From: an uncultured Eubacteriales bacterium
Lineage (GTDB): Bacteria; Bacillota; Clostridia; Oscillospirales; Oscillospiraceae
NCBI GenBank assembly: GCA_900554625.1
Contig: USHP01000094.1
Span: 1-7,312 of the forward strand
Direction: 5' to 3'
Length of the DNA stretch: 7,312 nucleotides
Part shown: in pieces, positions 1 through 7,312 of the stretch
How positions within the stretch are numbered: the stretch's first letter is position 1
Layout of the letters: every line of letters starts with the position of its first letter
The notes under the pieces: model-generated
What the model was told of the DNA's origin: nothing
Database searches by the model: none
Seen by the model: only the letters and a program-made list of their open reading frames with translations
Made by a program: the position numbers and the translations under genes

Positions 1-409
1 CAAAACAAAGGTGCATATGGGGCGTTTTCTCGTCCATATGCACCACGGCGGATATGATCGTGTCTTTCGATTGATGTTTTTGAATAAAGTCCAGCGCTTC
101 GGCGAAATATGCTTTGACCTCGGATTTTTTCTTGCCCTTGAAAAACTCCGGGCTGGCGGTCACCAGCGCCTCCACCACCCGCACACTGTCGGAACGGGTG
201 CGGCAGCCTGCTTCTGCAATCTGCTTTTCAGATTCTGCCCGGTACTTTCGTTCCGGTGTCACCAGATGAAAGTTGAGGCTGCTGCGAGTGGTATCGATAT
301 CGGGATTGCTGGCGTATTTTTCTTTGGTGCGCTCGTTGTGAGATTCGATGTGACCGATCTCCGGCCCCTTGTACTTGGCAAAGCGAAGAATGGCGTACTG
401 TGCTTTCAT
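1..409 (-). CDS. MobV-family relaxase (plasmid mobilization / Pre protein), N-terminal part, runs off window
   Basis: This is the amino-terminal 136 residues of a MobV (Pre/Mob) relaxase, which nicks one DNA strand at an origin of transfer and pilots it into a recipient. The gene continues past the left window edge, so the truncation is artificial. The reading frame begins MKAQYAILRF. Near residues 24-27 is SHNER, matching the HNxR motif whose histidine is the proposed catalytic nucleophile in pMV158 MobM (H22). Residues 34-48 (SNPDIDTTRSSLNFH) match the conserved NxDID..RS..N block. Residues 124-133 read HMDEKTPHMH, the metal-binding HxDExTPHxH motif; H124, E127, H131 and H133 keep the spacing of the MobM ligands. 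Its ATG overlaps the stop of the upstream small gene (TAATG), so the two are probably translationally coupled. Family assignment is strong; the mobilized element and transfer partner cannot be told from here. Confidence 0.95.
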   Translation of the reverse strand, partial: MKAQYAILRFAKYKGPEIGHIESHNERTKEKYASNPDIDTTRSSLNFHLVTPERKYRAESEKQIAEAGCRTRSDSVRVVEALVTASPEFFKGKKKSEVKAYFAEALDFIQKHQSKDTIISAVVHMDEKTPHMHLCF

Positions 410-624
410 TAGCGATCCCTCCGTTTCTGCCATACGATGTCGTAGCCCAGCACATCGGCCAGTTCCACGACTTCTCTATAACGGATGCTCTCCCGCTGCA
501 GCTTGGCGGAAAGGTTGGAAACGCTGTCGCTCCAATCGTATTCATCGGACAGCCTGTCCACCAGTTCCTGCATGGTAAAACCTGCACGGATGATCTGCGC
601 TTTGATCTCGTTTCTGATGTCCAT
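409..624 (-). CDS. Small helix-turn-helix-like protein upstream of the relaxase
   Basis: A 71-residue protein beginning MDIRNEIKAQ. The frame stays open further upstream to 720, but the ATG at 624 is preceded on the minus strand by a strong AGGAGG site, so this start is preferred. The order of predicted helices (IRNEIKAQIIRAG, TMQELVDRLSDEY, SVSNLSAKLQRES, YREVVELADVLGYDIVW) resembles a compact lambda-repressor/XRE fold in which SVSNLSAKL would be the recognition helix. It has no other domain, signal peptide or membrane segment. Its stop overlaps the start of the MobV gene, so it probably regulates the relaxase gene or acts as a relaxosome accessory DNA-binding protein. The exact family was not recognised; the DNA-binding role is inferred from the pattern and position. 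Confidence 0.8.
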   Translation of the reverse strand: MDIRNEIKAQIIRAGFTMQELVDRLSDEYDWSDSVSNLSAKLQRESIRYREVVELADVLGYDIVWQKRRDR

Positions 625-900
625 TTCGTTCCTCCTGATTTTGGAAATGAAAACAGCAAAGCCGATGCACTCTCTGGCAAACCGACTTTGCTGTATTGTG
701 TAAATCTCGATTGACTGCAAATTCGTTCAGATTTGACGGTGTAATGTCCTGCCCGTAGGTGGGCATATCCGACTTTGCGGAACCGTGGGACAGTTCACAA
801 AACCGTGCAGATGCACACTTTTTAGTAATGCCGGTGCTCGTTTCCAAGACGCGCGGTTCCACGAAGTCTTTTCGTCCTGCAGAAAAATTCTTTCCTGTTT
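625..900. other. Structured spacer upstream of the relaxase genes, candidate transfer-origin or regulatory region
   Basis: No convincing gene lies here. On the plus strand there are two direct copies of AACCGTG 20 bp apart (781-787 and 801-807). Three small inverted repeats are also present: TGCCC/GGGCA (750-754 and 761-765), GTGCA/TGCAC (805-809 and 812-816) and GCAAAG/CTTTGC (656-661 and 686-691). Read on the minus strand it contains CTAAAAAGTGTGC (825-813), which resembles the AGTGTG nick-side sequence of MobV origins. MobV origins of transfer usually lie just upstream of the mob gene, so this is a reasonable place for one, but no full match to a known site was seen. A weak ORF (542-904) crosses it and is judged spurious. 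Confidence 0.4.
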
Positions 901-1213: not shown

Positions 1214-2527
1214 TCATAAAATTGGCGGCGTGACCAGCGCCTCGATGCCCCAGAATCCGTTGACCCGTTTGCCGAGGCGGTTGGTAATGTGGTTGTCGTG
1301 TTCCAGGCCGAATTCGTCGGCGTGCTTTTTGAGCGTCATGCTCACCGTCCGTGCCGCCAGCGGTTTGTAGGCGTTGTCCTCACACCACATGGAATAGATG
1401 GCGTAGAGATCGACGGAGGTAATGGTGCTGTCGGCCTTCAACCGGATGTACCCCTCCGAGCGCAGGAACAGGAGAACATTGTCCGCCTCCTGCTTGGCCT
1501 CCACACGGTTGTCTCTGGTGCGGGCACTTTCGGTGAACCGGTAGCTGTTTCCAATCAGCCTCCGCAGACCATCCAGACACCAGAGGAAGATCCCCTCGAT
1601 TTCGGCACAGAGCTTGTCCGCAAGAAAAGGATCGTCCTCACGGTCGAGGGGCTTCTTTTTCACCGACAGAATCAGCTGCCGCCGGTAGAAGCCGTCCGAG
1701 TGGTCGTATAAGGATTCCAGATCGCCGTTGGAAAAGGCCAGAAACCGGACATACATCTGCCCCTGATAGCTCTGCTCGCCCTTTCGCTCCAAGTCCATGG
1801 GCATCTCGGCGGTGATCAGCGATTTGAGATAGTGGGTGGATTTCAACGCTTCCATCTTCATGTCATCGTCTACCATGAGAAGTTGATGCTCCAGATCGGC
1901 TCGTGCAAAGGGACTGCGCTCTACTTTGGCGATACTGCCATTTTTCAGATTATCGCCCAGCATCTTCTGCATCACCACGCCGATTCGGCTCTTGCCCTCG
2001 CCGCCGTTTCCTTTGAGCAGCATCATGGTTTGACCTCGGTTGGTGGGGAGTAGACAGTAGCCGAGATACTCCTGCAGGGTCAACACATCCTCGTCCTCCA
2101 AAAGTTCCGATAAAAAATGCAGCCATGTCACAGGCTGCGGAGCGTTGGCATCATATTTGACGGGCAGGCGGTTGCGGCAGAACTCCTTGTGATCGGTGAA
2201 CTCACCGTTCAGAAACAGCGTGCCGTTGGCCACATGGAGCCTGTCTTCGTGTACCGGCAGGTTCGGTGCATAGGCCTCCAGCTTCAGCATTTCCAGAAGC
2301 GCAGACGCCCGCTTTGCAAGGCCACAGCTGAGATAAGGGCGGAGCATCTCGTAGATAGCTTTACGGACGCTTTCTTCATCGTTGATGCGTCCCTCCCTGG
2401 TAAAAAAACTGCCGCCCACCCGGACCATAGGGTGCTTCTGCAGAAAGTCCTCACAGAATCCAACCTCATTTACCATTTTACCGTCGTACCAAAAGGGCCT
2501 TTCGACGGTGTATTCATGTTTGTTCAT
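1214..2527 (-). CDS. D5/P4-type SF3 helicase (phage/plasmid primase family C-terminal type)
   Basis: A 437-residue protein of the poxvirus D5 / phage P4 alpha-like family, whose members form ring helicases at replication origins of phages and plasmids. Residues 1-165 match the D5_N type of region. Walker A is GNGGEGKS (173-180), Walker B LLMVDDDM (216-223), the sensor-like FLAFSNGDL lies at 262-270, and FYRRQLIL (280-287) supplies the likely arginine finger. Residues 370-430 look like the C-terminal winged-helix domain. An AEP-type primase catalytic domain is not visible, so this is a helicase-only version; the length is short compared with fused primase-helicases. The ATG at 2527 has AGGAGG six bases upstream and overlaps the end of the CHC2 gene by 14 bp, indicating a coupled operon. 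Proposed role: replication of the element. Family call is firm; being the replication initiator is inference. Confidence 0.9.
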   Translation of the reverse strand: MNKHEYTVERPFWYDGKMVNEVGFCEDFLQKHPMVRVGGSFFTREGRINDEESVRKAIYEMLRPYLSCGLAKRASALLEMLKLEAYAPNLPVHEDRLHVANGTLFLNGEFTDHKEFCRNRLPVKYDANAPQPVTWLHFLSELLEDEDVLTLQEYLGYCLLPTNRGQTMMLLKGNGGEGKSRIGVVMQKMLGDNLKNGSIAKVERSPFARADLEHQLLMVDDDMKMEALKSTHYLKSLITAEMPMDLERKGEQSYQGQMYVRFLAFSNGDLESLYDHSDGFYRRQLILSVKKKPLDREDDPFLADKLCAEIEGIFLWCLDGLRRLIGNSYRFTESARTRDNRVEAKQEADNVLLFLRSEGYIRLKADSTITSVDLYAIYSMWCEDNAYKPLAARTVSMTLKKHADEFGLEHDNHITNRLGKRVNGFWGIEALVTPPIL

Positions 2528-3104
2528 TCGATTCCTCCTTGATCTCTCGCAGGTGATCCTGCAAGAGCGTGATTTTGTTGTCTTTCATCATGTCGTTTAC
2601 CAAGTCTGTTCGTTCTTCCGGAGAACCTATCGTCAGTAAATCCAACATATACTGCGTACATTCGAGCATATGGCAGGCTTCCACAAAGCGGTCGTCCGGA
2701 TCATCCTCCAGTGTCTGAGGCGAAAAGCGCACCTTCCAATCCTGCAGGATTTGCAGATACTCCCGTAGAACGCGGAAACAAAGACGCTCGTTGTCTGCCT
2801 GCGTCCTGTACAAGTTCAGCTTGGTGAGGATGGACGGCTTGTCCTCTTGAACACCGAAGTCTGCCCTCAGTTTCTGCACTGCCTCCATGGCTGTGATACC
2901 GAACAGCTTGGATGTGAATTCAATCACATCTCCCTTAGCACCACAGCCGAAGCAATAGAAGTAATCCTCATTTAGCTTCATGCTGGGGTGTCGGTCATTG
3001 TGGAATGGACAGCAGGCCATTCCGTTTCGGCTGACGCTCAGCCCGAAGTGTTCCGCCGCCATCCTCGGCGTGACCGTGGATTTGACGGCTTCAAAAATTG
3101 TCAT
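2514..3104 (-). CDS. CHC2 zinc-finger protein (DnaG-type zinc ribbon, no TOPRIM)
   Basis: A 196-residue protein starting MTIFEAVKST. An ATG two codons earlier and a TTG at 3134 are also in frame, but GAGAGGAG sits eight bases before the ATG at 3104. Residues 11-64 are a DnaG-like CHC2 zinc ribbon: C32-x2-H35 (CPFHNDRHPS) and C51-x2-C54 (CFGCGAKGDVIEF) supply the four zinc ligands. In bacterial primases this domain recognises the template. Residues 65-85 continue the typical helical part (ITAMEAVQKLRADFG). The remaining 110 residues are charged and helical with no TOPRIM motifs, so primer synthesis by this protein alone is unlikely. Pairing with the overlapping SF3 helicase gene suggests a split primase-helicase module working at the element's origin. 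It is the first gene of the minus-strand operon. Confidence 0.9.
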   Translation of the reverse strand: MTIFEAVKSTVTPRMAAEHFGLSVSRNGMACCPFHNDRHPSMKLNEDYFYCFGCGAKGDVIEFTSKLFGITAMEAVQKLRADFGVQEDKPSILTKLNLYRTQADNERLCFRVLREYLQILQDWKVRFSPQTLEDDPDDRFVEACHMLECTQYMLDLLTIGSPEERTDLVNDMMKDNKITLLQDHLREIKEESNEQT

Positions 3105-3202
3105 AGGCATTTCTCCTCTCGATTTTTCTGACAAATTCTCTTTGTCATCTGAATATACGGAGAAAAAGTCTTAGACCGAAAAAATCAGGCTCTTGTGCAA
3201 GC

Positions 3203-3344: not shown

Positions 3345-4649
3345 ATGAACTATATCGAAAGTGAGACTGTGGAACTCAAAGCGGAAGTGGTCAGCGATAT
3401 CTGCAAAGAAATCATCGCATTTGCCAATACAAAAGGCGGTACCCTGTATATCGGCGTTCAGGACGATGGGCAGATCATCGGTGTGAACGATGCCGACCGT
3501 GTCACGCTGCAGATCAGCAATATGGTTCGGGACTCCATCAAGCCGGACGTAACCATGTTTGTTGGGTATAAAACGCAGGAAGAGAACGGCAGGCAAGTCG
3601 TTGCGGTAACGGTTCAGAAAGGGACGGACCGGCCTTATTATCTTGGGAGCAAAGGTCTGAAACCCAGCGGTGTCTATGTTCGGAACGGCACCTCTACCGA
3701 TCCTGCCACCGATACAGCTATTCGAAAAATGATCAAGGAGACGGATGGCGACACATTTGAAGATATGCGTTCTTTGGAGCAGAATCTGACCTTTGAGGCA
3801 GCAGCGGAACTGTTTGCCAAATGCAAAATACCCTTTGATGCTTCAAAGATGCGAACCCTTGGTTTGGTGTCTTCTGACGGTATCTATTCCAATGTCGCCA
3901 TGCTGTTATCCGATCAGTGCAGCATAACGGTCAAAGCAGCGACATTTACCGGAACTGAAAAAGTCAACTTTCATGACAGACGCGAATTTACCGGCTCCCT
4001 ATTCCGGCAGATGGAGGAAATATACGCCTACCTTGACCTGAGAAACAGCACGAAGTCGACCATTGAGGGCTTGTACCGCAATGATTTGCGCGACTATCCG
4101 GAAGAAGCCCTTCGGGAAGCGCTGATGAATTCGCTGGTTCACAGAGACTATTCCTTCCGTGCCAGCACCTTAATCAGTGTATACGACGACCGAATTGAAT
4201 TTGTATCCATAGGCGGTTTACCCAGCGGCATTGAGCTCGATGATATTATGCTCGGCCTTTCCGTATGCCGAAACCCAAAGTTGGCGGCGGTATTTTACCG
4301 ACTGAAGCTGATTGAGGCCTATGGTACCGGTATGCCGAAAATCATGAGTTCTTATGGGGGCAGCGGGCTGGAACCCAAAATTGAAGTCACCAATAATGCC
4401 TTCAAAATTACTTTGCCCAATCGCAATGCCGCAGAAAAGAAGGTGACCGCAGCCTCGATTGCCCGCAGAACCAATGAGCAGCAGATCATGGAAGTTGTCG
4501 AGAGAAATGGGTTCATCGTTCGCAGCGATGTGGATTCTTTGCTCAGCGTCAGCCAGGCGACAGCAAGCCGTATTCTGAAACGCATGGTTGCCGATGGGCT
4601 GCTCTATCAGGATGGTGTTGGGAGAAAGACGAAATTCCTGAAAAAGTGA
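3345..4649 (+). CDS. AlbA_2/Schlafen-domain ATP-binding transcriptional regulator
   Basis: A 434-residue protein of the COG2865 type (often called a RecG-like or putative transcriptional regulator). Residues 5-125 form the AlbA_2 (Schlafen-like) domain, with the recognisable ETVELKAEV start, DICKEIIAFANTKGGTLYIGV (18-38) and GVYVRNGTSTDPA (109-121). Residues 250-345 match a GHKL-like ATP-binding domain: YPEEALREALMNSLVHRDYS (251-270) is the N-box-like helix, and RNPKLA (309-314) and EAYGTGMPKI (324-333) the later conserved pieces. Residues 375-430 end in a winged helix (DVDSLLSVSQATASRILKRMVADGLLY). GGAGG lies six bases before the ATG, under a consensus promoter. It is divergent from the replication operon and upstream of the XRE/sigma pair, so it probably regulates element genes. 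Family members also occur near defence or toxin systems, so a wider role is possible; no catalytic nuclease motif was seen. Confidence 0.9.
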   Translation: MNYIESETVELKAEVVSDICKEIIAFANTKGGTLYIGVQDDGQIIGVNDADRVTLQISNMVRDSIKPDVTMFVGYKTQEENGRQVVAVTVQKGTDRPYYLGSKGLKPSGVYVRNGTSTDPATDTAIRKMIKETDGDTFEDMRSLEQNLTFEAAAELFAKCKIPFDASKMRTLGLVSSDGIYSNVAMLLSDQCSITVKAATFTGTEKVNFHDRREFTGSLFRQMEEIYAYLDLRNSTKSTIEGLYRNDLRDYPEEALREALMNSLVHRDYSFRASTLISVYDDRIEFVSIGGLPSGIELDDIMLGLSVCRNPKLAAVFYRLKLIEAYGTGMPKIMSSYGGSGLEPKIEVTNNAFKITLPNRNAAEKKVTAASIARRTNEQQIMEVVERNGFIVRSDVDSLLSVSQATASRILKRMVADGLLYQDGVGRKTKFLKK

Positions 4650-4746: not shown

Positions 4747-5553
4747 ATGAGCAACGAGAGTGTTTATCTCCCCGGTAAAATCCGTGACCGTATTCAGGAC
4801 CTGATGAAATCACGCAAGGTCACACAGGCAGAACTTGCCACCCGGATCGGTTGTTCGGAAAGTGCGCTGAGTCGTTTCATCAGCGGCAAGACGGACAAGC
4901 TGGGCGATGAAAATATCATCCGCATTGCCCGTGTGTTTAACGTCTCCACTGACTTCCTGCTTGGGGAAGTCGATGTCCCCGACCGCCTGAATTATGATAT
5001 TTCCGAGCTTGGCCTGTCGGTACAGGCGGCAAGAAATCTGTACACCCATAAAGTGAATCCACAGGTGGTCAATGCACTGCTTGAAAATCCGGAGTTTTCC
5101 AACACCACCAATCTGATCTCCGGTTACCTGGATGACGAACTCGCCAAGGGCTTTGCGGCACAGAATCAGTTGTACGCAACCGTCGCCGGTATGCTGAAAT
5201 GTGAGCCAGATGCGGTAAATGACGTTAAGAAATTACAGACGCCTGTGTATCAGGCAGACCTGACGGCGATCCAGCGGTCATTTATGGCAGCGGTACAAGC
5301 AGTCAAGAAAGAGGTTGGCAACGATCTGTCTGCCACCCGTGAACTGACCGCGCAGGCAGCGAAAAAGATTTATGACGAGCTGACAAAGGGGCAGAAAAAG
5401 CGAAACCGCAAAATCACCCCGGAACAAATCAGCGAGGCGGTGGCACAATCTGTTTCCCATTTGCCTGGTGTCGATACGGAAATGGTCAAGCAGATGTTCC
5501 TTGCGATGACCGGCACGGTAACGAATCATGAAAAGAGACCAGATGACCAATGA
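4747..5553 (+). CDS. XRE-family helix-turn-helix transcriptional regulator
   Basis: A 268-residue protein. Residues 11-74 are a lambda-repressor/Cro-type domain (KIRDRIQDLMKSRKVTQAEL, then ATRIGCSESALSRFISGK with the recognition helix at about 38-47, closing IIRIARVFNVSTDFLLG). Residues 80-268 are mostly helical, with a basic stretch KGQKKRNRKITPEQI (214-228), and match no domain I recognise; there is no LexA/CI-type protease motif visible, so release by self-cleavage is unlikely. AGGAGG lies eight bases before the ATG. The end of the gene overlaps the sigma factor frame, so both are one operon. Likely role: controls its own operon, and through the sigma factor other element genes. A palindrome around the -10-like hexamer upstream fits autoregulation. 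Confidence 0.9.
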   Translation: MSNESVYLPGKIRDRIQDLMKSRKVTQAELATRIGCSESALSRFISGKTDKLGDENIIRIARVFNVSTDFLLGEVDVPDRLNYDISELGLSVQAARNLYTHKVNPQVVNALLENPEFSNTTNLISGYLDDELAKGFAAQNQLYATVAGMLKCEPDAVNDVKKLQTPVYQADLTAIQRSFMAAVQAVKKEVGNDLSATRELTAQAAKKIYDELTKGQKKRNRKITPEQISEAVAQSVSHLPGVDTEMVKQMFLAMTGTVTNHEKRPDDQ

Positions 5554-6259
5554 ACAGCTCTGTGCATTGGCCAAGCAGGGCGACGCTGATGCGCAGAATC
5601 TGCTGATTGAGAAGAACCTCCGCTTTATCAAAAAGACCGCGTTCGAAGTATGGAATACGCGTGCACAGTTCAACCGCTCCCTGTGTATTGACGTCGAGGA
5701 TCTGGTACAGGAAGGATCAATAGGGCTGTATGACTGTATCGAAAAGTTTGATCCGGACAGCGGCAACCAGTTCCTGACCTATGCTGTTCCGGCAATCAAA
5801 AACGCCATGCTCGACTATGTTCGCTCGCAGAGTTCATTCTTTGAAGGCAAGAATCAGAGCGAGATTATGTCTCTGGATGAATTTGCAAAGGATGAGGTAC
5901 AAAGCAAACATACCTTCATTCCCGATCCCGCGACACAAACACCGGAGCAAGTTTATCTGGCGCAGGAACGACTGAACGATCTCCATCATGCCCTGGATAG
6001 GATCGAGGCCAGAGAAGAACAGTATTTGCGCTATCGGTTCGGATTCGTTGATGACATTGAGCATCCGCTGACGGAAACGGCGCAGCACTTCAACCTGTCC
6101 GAAAGCAGAGCAAAACGCACCGAGGCGCTGGCTCTGGATAACGTGTGGCTGGAGCTGCCGTGGTGGTATGAGCAGCAGAGAACTTTTCTCCTGTCTGCCA
6201 TCATGGAAGCGCTTCTTGCGATTGAGAAATTGATCAACGAAAGAGTGTCGCTCGGATAA
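5543..6259 (+). CDS. Sigma-70 family RNA polymerase sigma factor (mobile-element type)
   Basis: A sigma factor of 238 residues from the ATG at 5543 (MTNEQLCALA); an in-frame ATG at 5528 would add five residues. Neither has a strong ribosome site. I prefer 5543 because AGAG lies just before it and MTNEQL-like starts suit the family. Both overlap the XRE gene, indicating translational coupling. Numbered from 5528, region 2 spans 29-101, with DVEDLVQEGSIGLYDCIEKF (55-74) and FLTYAVPAIKNAMLDYVRSQ (82-101). Region 4 spans 160-207, ending in the helix-turn-helix LTETAQHFNLSESRAKRTEA (181-200). Region 1 is absent. The tail PWWYEQQRTFLLSAIMEALL and beyond is hydrophobic and of unknown use. It probably directs core polymerase to element promoters, such as transfer or excision genes. 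Its target promoter is not known. Confidence 0.9.
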   Translation: MTNEQLCALAKQGDADAQNLLIEKNLRFIKKTAFEVWNTRAQFNRSLCIDVEDLVQEGSIGLYDCIEKFDPDSGNQFLTYAVPAIKNAMLDYVRSQSSFFEGKNQSEIMSLDEFAKDEVQSKHTFIPDPATQTPEQVYLAQERLNDLHHALDRIEAREEQYLRYRFGFVDDIEHPLTETAQHFNLSESRAKRTEALALDNVWLELPWWYEQQRTFLLSAIMEALLAIEKLINERVSLG

Positions 6260-6420: not shown

Positions 6421-6488
6421 CGCCTGTTCTGCTGCCGCCGAAAACTGCCTGTCTGGTGTGGGACAGCCCCTTTTCAGCGTCAGCGGTC

Positions 6489-6516
6489 GCAAAAGGTATA
6501 ACACACTAGACCTTGC
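6489..6516 (-). other. Candidate MobV-type origin of transfer (pMV158-like relaxase recognition site)
   Basis: Read on the minus strand, 6508-6496 is TAGTGTGTTATAC, identical over 13 bases to the core of the pMV158 MobM recognition site as I remember it, where the nick falls within GTGTG/TT. It is flanked by an imperfect inverted repeat, GCAAGGTCTA on one side and TATACCTTTTGC on the other (6516-6507 and 6500-6489), with one mismatch and two unpaired bases, leaving the GTGTGT nick region as the loop. The orientation agrees with the minus-strand MobV gene, although that gene is about 6 kb away. The match to pMV158 is from memory and was not aligned by program. Confidence 0.65.
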
Positions 6517-6587
6517 AAGCAAGATCGTGTGCCAACAGGGATGCTCCGCGCCCCCATTGGAAACCCCGTGCCAAGGTGATTTTTCCC

Positions 6588-6629
6588 TTTGGATACCCCT
6601 TTATTTTTGACTGCAAAAGGGTACCCAAA
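6588..6629. repeat. Inverted repeat around TTTGGATACCC / GGGTACCCAAA
   Basis: TTTGGATACCC (6588-6598) pairs with GGGTACCCAAA (6619-6629), ten of eleven positions matching, and can extend by three A-T pairs past a bulged C. It is the first of three strong hairpins in 170 bp. Neither side has a clear terminator T-tract. Confidence 0.5.
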
Positions 6630-6667
6630 CCATCAAAACCGGTTTGGCACTTGTGCCGTCAAAAATA

Positions 6668-6717
6668 GAAAATCCGAAAAATCTCCTCGTAGCGGCTTGG
6701 AGAAATTTCGGATTTTC
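6668..6717. repeat. Long inverted repeat, possible minus-strand terminator
   Basis: Bases 6668-6686 pair with 6699-6717: 12 bp, two mismatches, then 5 bp, with a 12-base loop (6687-6698). The outer stem includes GAAAATCCGAAA and TTTCGGATTTTC. On the minus strand the stem is followed by TATTTTTG, so it could end leftward transcription coming from the ATPase side. On the plus strand no such tract follows. Confidence 0.65.
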
Positions 6718-6719
6718 GT

Positions 6720-6756
6720 CCATGGGAGTTTGCTGCGGATTTGCAAATTCCCATGG
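6720..6756. repeat. 14-bp inverted repeat around CCATGGGAGTTTGC
   Basis: CCATGGGAGTTTGC (6720-6733) pairs with GCAAATTCCCATGG (6743-6756) over 14 positions including one G-T pair, with a 9-base loop. It begins only three bases after the preceding hairpin, so the two form a tandem. No T-tract follows on either strand, which argues against a simple terminator. Confidence 0.65.
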
Positions 6757-6892
6757 AGGAGCTGCGGTGGAAACGAGGGGGCAGTTGCCGATCTGTGCGC
6801 CGCTGCTTTTATCGCCGATATTTGTCGATTGTCTTTATCGCTTGTTTCCTCAAATGCAAGCGCTAAACAATACGATCGGAAGTAAATATAAA

Positions 6893-7013
6893 TAAAAGTG
6901 TGATCTGGCGCCGTGAAAACCATTAAATTTTGTGATTGGGGTTGTATTTTACATCCTTCGTGCATATAATAAAAGTGTGAACACACGACACAAAAACTCC
7001 AGTAAAAGTGTGA
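6893..7013 (+). repeat. Three direct copies of TAAAAGTGTGA upstream of the ATPase gene
   Basis: Exact copies at 6893-6903, 6970-6980 and 7003-7013. The middle copy begins at the last base of the TATAAT box, so it covers the expected transcription start. The third copy runs into the ribosome binding site. The spacing (77 and 33 bp from start to start) is irregular, which fits binding sites better than slipped-strand repeats. Confidence 0.8.
6942..6970 (+). promoter_or_regulatory. Promoter of the ATPase gene
   Basis: TTGTAT (6942-6947) and TATAAT (6965-6970) are separated by 17 bases, giving a good sigma-A promoter with a perfect -10 box. The expected start near 6977 lies inside the second TAAAAGTGTGA repeat, suggesting that the repeats act as operators. 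Confidence 0.7.
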
Positions 7014-7024
7014 GGAGTGTAGCT

Positions 7025-7312
7025 ATGGAACGATTTATTTTGAAAAAGCTGCTGGACTGGAAGAATTCTCCCTACCGCAAGCCCCTGATCATGAAGGGTG
7101 TACGTCAGGTGGGCAAGACTTGGATTCTGAAAGAGTTTGGTAAGCGTTACTATGAAAATATCGCCTATTTCAACTTCGATGAAAACGAGGAATACAAGCA
7201 GTTCTTTGAAACCACCAAGGATGTTGACCGCATCCTGCAGAACCTGATGCTGGCCAGCGGTCAGAAGATCGTACCGGAAAAGACGCTCATCATTTTTGAC
7301 GAGGTGCAGGAT
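7025..7312 (+). CDS. AAA_14/DUF4143-type P-loop ATPase, N-terminal part, runs off window
   Basis: The first 96 residues of a P-loop ATPase that continues past the right edge. It starts MERFILKKLLDWKNSPYRKP; GAGGAG (7012-7017) is seven bases before the ATG. Walker A is GVRQVGKT (25-32) and Walker B LIIFDE (88-93), followed by VQD as in the FDEVQ motif of this family. The whole N-terminal arrangement fits the large AAA_14 plus DUF4143 family. These proteins are abundant in gut anaerobes and their cellular role is poorly known. Whether this gene belongs to the mobile element or to flanking chromosome cannot be decided here, since no integration junction was seen. It appears to have its own promoter and three repeat elements. 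Confidence 0.88.
   Translation, partial: MERFILKKLLDWKNSPYRKPLIMKGVRQVGKTWILKEFGKRYYENIAYFNFDENEEYKQFFETTKDVDRILQNLMLASGQKIVPEKTLIIFDEVQD

Follow-up and report, generated by a model that had tools for sequence, protein, structure and literature searches.

A probable pMV158-type MOBV transfer origin situated about 6 kb from the relaxase gene in DNA of an uncultured Eubacteriales bacterium

The window, the whole stretch of 7,312 bp that was analysed, carries at positions 6496-6532 of the minus strand a match to the pMV158-type origin of transfer (oriT) of MOBV relaxases, and judged from sequence the element's own MobV most likely uses it in cis as its oriT, a reading to which we assign a probability of about 0.87. 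The predicted nick lies 6.09 kb from the likely MobV ATG (409), on the same strand, and the site is thus not, as is usual for MOBV, directly upstream of mob and over its promoter. We regard a promoter-adjacent position as a usual and not a defining trait of a MOBV or pMV158-type oriT, and the window site is most likely a MOBV oriT that has moved out of the mob promoter. The initial annotation of this DNA had reported a pMV158-like core on the minus strand some 6 kb from the MobV gene and in the same orientation, and both observations stand. While the type of site is known, a MOBV oriT that is conserved at a distance from mob and has dyads next to it is rated here as a new variant. Such a family would begin DNA transfer at a distant site and not beside the relaxase gene; oriTs are usually sought beside relaxase genes, a rule that would miss the whole lineage. 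The features of the window are as follows.

2..409, minus strand: MobV relaxase, N-terminal part only (Mob_Pre, E 3.1e-35; frame open to 433)
409..720, minus strand: small HTH-like frame (DUF6471, E 2e-4, below the Pfam cut-off), one-base overlap with the mob start
1214..3134, minus strand: replication block, DUF5906/D5-like helicase (1214-2527) plus CHC2 primase (2514-3134) (Pfam)
3345..4649, plus strand: AlbA_2/Schlafen-type gene, predicted leading region (Pfam)
4747..5553, plus strand: XRE regulator, predicted leading region (Pfam HTH_3)
5528..6259, plus strand: sigma-70-like factor, ending ~240 bp before the nick core; anchor for the comparison (Pfam)
6493..6514, minus strand: IR2-like repeat, AAGGT (6514-6510) with ACCTT (6497-6493), spanning the nick; paired in the window, imperfect
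6496..6508, minus strand: nick core TAGTGTG/TTATAC, exact single match, identical to part of the pMV158 oriT (available text of PMC5863519)
6502..6531, minus strand: IR3-type extended stem, CACAC (6531-6527) with GTGTG (6506-6502), TA bulge (DNA fold)
6509..6526, minus strand: IR1-type hairpin GATCTTGC-TT-GCAAGGTC (covariation and fold)
6532..6560, minus strand: dyad 1, CCAATGGGGG...ATCCCTGTTGG, adjoining CACAC (upstream stem survey)
6571..6592, minus strand: dyad 2, CCAAAGGG...CACCTTGG, second unit of the array (sequence)

The core TAGTGTGTTATAC is present exactly on the minus strand (6508-6496), and no other match occurs in the window even with three mismatches allowed. The chance of an exact 13-mer in 7,312 bp, both strands counted, is ~0.0002 by an order-0 estimate; shuffled sequences are expected to hold 0.67 matches at ≤3 mismatches, a figure that does not test the exact match. 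Read along the minus strand the full feature consists of GCACAC (6532-6527), an 18-nt hairpin (6526-6509) and TAGTGTG/TTATAC, the IR1/IR3 geometry of pMV158, with the predicted nick between 6502 and 6501. The spacing from the end of the stem (AAGGT) to that nick is 8 nt, equal to that given for pMV158 (PMC5863519, as far as its text was available), and in the DNA fold the nick sits at the foot of the 3' arm of the IR3-type stem. Folded as single-stranded DNA, the feature forms a stem interrupted by a 2-nt bulge, with an energy of -6.1 kcal/mol (z -2.2; 9/200 shuffles were equally good). The stability of dyad 1 was unremarkable against shuffles, either alone or together with the hairpin (z -0.9 in both cases), and relatives carry from one to about four dyad-type units, as counted by eye. 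The imperfect inverted repeat that the initial annotation placed at 6489-6516 does exist, but it is the weaker, IR2-like one, and the stronger IR1/IR3 structure (6532-6502) had been overlooked. The site occupies a gap of ~765 bp with the sigma gene (5528-6259) on one side and an AAA_14 gene (from 7025) on the other. Rfam returned no family for the window at gathering thresholds, and comparison of the window with plasmids gave no near match. To the right of the dyads, at 6602-6760, are three more inverted repeats, in a stretch alignable to ~6755 in the relatives L028, L033, L034 and L040.

MobV is represented in the window by its N-terminal part alone, and both ends of the element lie outside. 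The MobV frame aligns to the structures of pMV158 MobM (4lvi and other PDB chains, E 3.1e-15) and retains the MOBV motifs HNER and HxDExTPHMH. The stop codon TAA (411-409) of the frame before mob shares a base with the likely MobV ATG at 409, which leaves no room for an oriT immediately ahead of mob. A local oriT beside the window's mob was therefore rejected, there being neither a second core match at ≤3 mismatches nor a gap before the start codon. At the other end of the window the AAA_14 gene (7025-7312) matches the PADLOC candidate PDC-S01; the gene and its upstream region are 81% identical to positions 6934-7283 of L006, where they occupy a different slot, between primase and XRE, and AAAAGTGTGA occurs in three copies ahead of the gene (6894-6903, 6971-6980 and 7004-7013), a possible operator.

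The oriT of pMV158 (MOBV1, MobM) is described as GCACAC, an 18-nt IR1, a spacing of 8 nt to the nick, and TAGTGTG/TTATAC, and it shares with the window the order GCACAC, 18-nt hairpin and TAGTGTGTTATAC, as well as an IR3-type stem with a bulge; however, the pMV158 site lies over the mobM promoters and its IR2 is complete, whereas the window site is 6 kb off, behind the sigma gene and beside dyads (accessible parts of PMC5863519). The integrative mobilizable element IMESag-rpsI, with the relaxase MobSag, has an oriT with three inverted repeats and a nick at GTGCG/TT demonstrated in vitro; it is a MOBV site like that of the window but is directly upstream of mobSag (PMC5090054, excerpted text). 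Similarly the Staphylococcus aureus MOBV plasmid SAP085B (L088) has TAGTGTGTTATACCTT behind a hairpin, as in the window, but only 75 nt from the mob start. A remote oriT is already known from another family, that of pLS20, which differs from the window in its relaxase (MOBL) and in being a conjugative plasmid (PMC5313138, from the sections available). No remote MOBV oriT was recognised in the literature, as judged by titles and the openings of abstracts, with most subscription journals outside the scope.

Evidence that the structure is under selection came from an alignment of 57 distinct sites, longer-loop sites such as that of L074 falling outside the pattern. In the IR1/IR3 layout pairing was found in 97.0% of cells versus 91.8% in shuffles, 29 cells had changed on both sides versus 7.3, and the covariation score was 0.157 versus 0.076; for each of these three measures 0/500 shuffles were as high. 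The remaining two of the five measures were weaker, namely four pairs with a double change (25/500 shuffles) and seven pair types (332/500). CACAC and GTGTG were invariant in 57/57 sites, both having been fixed beforehand by the search pattern. As GCACAC and the core are fixed by the pattern, and GTS by the genome scan, the evidence derives from the inner pairs, where double changes occurred at column pairs 11/25 (8) and 14/22 (16). The IR2 layout of the same 57 sites showed no excess over shuffles and its column pair 25/42 was unpaired in 48/57; covariation thus does not favour IR2 as the functional repeat. In this the aligned sites differ from pMV158 with its full IR2, which has been proposed as an off-state for mobM expression and transfer in that plasmid (text of PMC5863519 available in part). 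Upstream of the core structure a stem of at least 9 pairs (one mismatch and G-T allowed) ended exactly at CACAC in 53/79 distinct 70-nt upstream sequences versus 7% of base shuffles, the 79 copies being related and the 53 stems thus not 53 events.

Relatives of the window were sought in several ways. Of the phage records 11 were matched by the window with blastn and five of these, all faecal scaffolds, were matched within the block 6463-6574; in one of the five (L001) a complete MobV begins 1.3 kb from the site. The sigma protein had no relative among viral contigs. Fetching sigma-gene relatives from genome contigs yielded 75 loci in which MobV was located by tblastn, the main count being of mobs on the minus strand to the left of sigma; an unfiltered count adds only a second Mob in L013. 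The loci comprised 21 with a close MobV (≥35% identity, L019 being so classed by a 36% match limited to the C-terminal part), 26 with a distant Mob (22-28%) and 28 with no detectable Mob. A site was scored when found on the minus strand no more than 5 kb 3' of sigma. It was present in 21/21 close-MobV loci versus 0/26 distant-Mob loci (0/23 among those with at least 400 bp to inspect), counts which are not independent events since the loci share kinship, the sigma tree giving about four. The initial annotation had made its reading depend on conservation of the core in relatives with conserved flanks, and in all 21 of these loci the core is kept. In 20/21 the site lies 192-262 bp past the sigma match, with L044 having it 3.9 kb past and a MatE gene in between, and the mob-to-site distance ranges over 3.4-9.4 kb. 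Among the loci with no detectable Mob the site was present in 13/28 and absent in 15, and four of the 13 (L032, L033, L041 and L072) have at least 7 kb on the mob side. An opposite-strand site 5.0 kb beyond sigma in the distant-Mob locus L063 was left out of the count.

The sigma tree was built from 43 proteins, those of the window, 20/21 close-MobV loci and 22/26 distant-Mob loci; L062 and L070 (short sigma frames) and L055, L057 and L060 (no sequence 3' of sigma) were left out. The label close or distant switches four times on this tree, and well-supported branches force at least three switches. The tree argues against the idea that presence of the site simply follows sigma descent; in these sequence comparisons the site varies with the relaxase type and not with the sigma backbone, which supports the proposal of the initial annotation that it serves the element's own MobV. 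The distant-Mob loci have a nick-like motif of their own, TAGTG[GT]GTTATTAC, which 24/26 carry no more than 160 nt ahead of the mob match; in the other two it was 1.0 kb upstream (L053) or was not found (L020). Among the 22 close-MobV loci, the window counted, this motif occurred only in L013, next to its second, distant Mob. A second relaxase-site pair is seen on the same backbone, the distant Mob together with GCACTTTGC...GAAAGTGT-ATAGTGGGTTATTACACTT near the mob upstream (24/26; L009, L017, L029, L030, L048-L066 and others). In the distant-Mob locus L009 (10600-10900) the block is kept through the hairpin and the nick core is lost, possibly a fossil of the remote site.

A scan independent of sigma used the pattern GCACACN{8,30}GTSTAGTGTGTTAYAC, a simple pattern that finds sites across genomes, including stretches without MobV. 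It was found at 51 places in 29/295 genomes sampled evenly from one order and at 19 places in 8/9 genomes reached via loci of this analysis, 7 already known to hold the site; the two sets share two genomes and five places. Of the 65 distinct places 64 were fetched, the one omitted being the L024 site; some of the 64 were already in the sigma set (by contig, L146, L154, L172-L175, L177 and L178 among them) and L137, L149 and L155 are near copies within the 64. The reversed control pattern gave 0 matches. That the window feature matches by chance, or is some regulatory inverted repeat of another kind located after the sigma gene, is hardly credible: the core is short and repeats are common in the window, but conservation, covariation, the empty reversed control and co-occurrence with MobV all contradict it.

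A MobV was detected by profile in 33/64 fetched stretches, and in 32/33 it lay downstream on the strand of the site, at 0.53-11.3 kb (median 4.7 kb; 31/32 beyond 1 kb), the exception being L166, whose MobV is on the opposite strand and behind the site. The order sample alone gave MobV in 26/51, with 25/26 downstream on the same strand. Stretches without MobV included 13 with <4 kb downstream and 18 with at least 10 kb (12 of these 18 from the order sample); among the 51 fetched sites with >5 kb downstream, MobV was missing in 18 by tblastn or profile. The 18 long stretches indicate that the site can occur without MobV in cis and rule out that every site is paired with a MobV. They also favour the view that the window holds a true MOBV oriT used in trans by the MobV of another element, in the manner of the oriT-only (iOriT) hitchhikers, which are a recognised class (PMC11389934, available portion). 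For the window copy this is nevertheless unlikely, as its MobV is correct in subfamily and strand and lies at a usual distance, and the C characteristic of that subfamily is present. The suggestion of the initial annotation that the site may instead serve another relaxase beyond the window accordingly becomes a less likely alternative here, even though sites lacking a MobV in cis exist. The C in question is the base preceding TAGTGTG. Sites whose MobV is of the window type have C there in 17/17 cases, and those with an L086-type MobV have G in 15/16 (exception L151); types were assigned by best match and L166 was counted. In the window this base is C, and the MobV there shares 78% identity with that of L034 and 57% with that of L086. 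C versus G offers testable relaxase-site pairs and would predict which gut elements are able to share a relaxase.

MobV proteins are also called plasmid recombination enzymes, and the site could be mainly a target of MobV recombination for fusing or resolving elements and not an oriT. Mob_Pre is described by its plasmid-recombination activity, and L009 breaks off between hairpin and nick core, a possible junction; however, recombination at such sites is an expected by-product of nicking and the fixed orientation towards mob (32/33) suits transfer, so that this explanation is very improbable.

With the site taken as the cis oriT of the element's MobV, the CACAC...GTGTG hairpin would extrude and MobV would bind IR1, cut GTGTG/TT at 6502/6501 and stay on the 5' end, then pilot the strand through the mating channel of a helper. 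Entry would proceed towards lower coordinates, with sigma, XRE and AlbA_2 first, then the replication genes and then mob; from the polarity of the site, sigma, XRE and AlbA_2 would form the leading region, as the initial annotation had it. An integrative mobilizable element with its own relaxase (iMOB) would be expected to encode an integrase, which here would lie outside the window, and in the relatives L034, L062, L013 and L044 a serine recombinase is found on the far side of MobV. L034, L062 and L006 carry restriction-modification genes behind the site; should this cargo belong to the element, it would be the last part to be transferred. Circularisation would bring mob, recombinase, cargo and site onto a single arc and would make relaxase and oriT exchangeable together. 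A site outside the mob promoter fits an apparent loss of constraint on IR2, and the start of transfer and mob expression are likely to be uncoupled. The dyads adjoining CACAC are perhaps, as a guess, a site for an accessory protein or for second-strand priming.

A wider scenario can be put forward tentatively, at a little under even odds. In a MOBV lineage of gut Firmicutes the oriT would have been relocated from the mob promoter to where the backbone meets the defence cargo, keeping IR1/IR3, dropping self-control through IR2 and gaining the dyad array; relaxase and oriT would swap as a pair, though kilobases apart, over a retained replication-sigma core, and relaxase-less Faecalibacterium islands would carry the same site.

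The 18 MobV-less sites with at least 10 kb downstream are those of L156-L159, L183, L185-L189, L136, L145, L148, L153, L164, L167, L168 and L170. They are candidate oriT-only islands, and some may be relaxase-less hitchhikers. TTACAC variants recur among MobV-less sites, including in the genome of Faecalibacterium sp. I4-1-79. A serine recombinase was found 0.5-1.6 kb behind the site in the four MobV-less loci tested (L158, L185, L186 and L187), and no relaxase domain was seen in 20 other frames from the same loci. Near the L183 site there is a relaxase of MobP type. Gut plasmid records (L084-L087) also include the GTG form of the site. Three of these (L084-L086) have an annotated aadE ~0.4 kb from the site, on the side predicted to enter first, and in L085 and L086 a MobV, a partial match only in L085, lies at least 4.4 kb further on.
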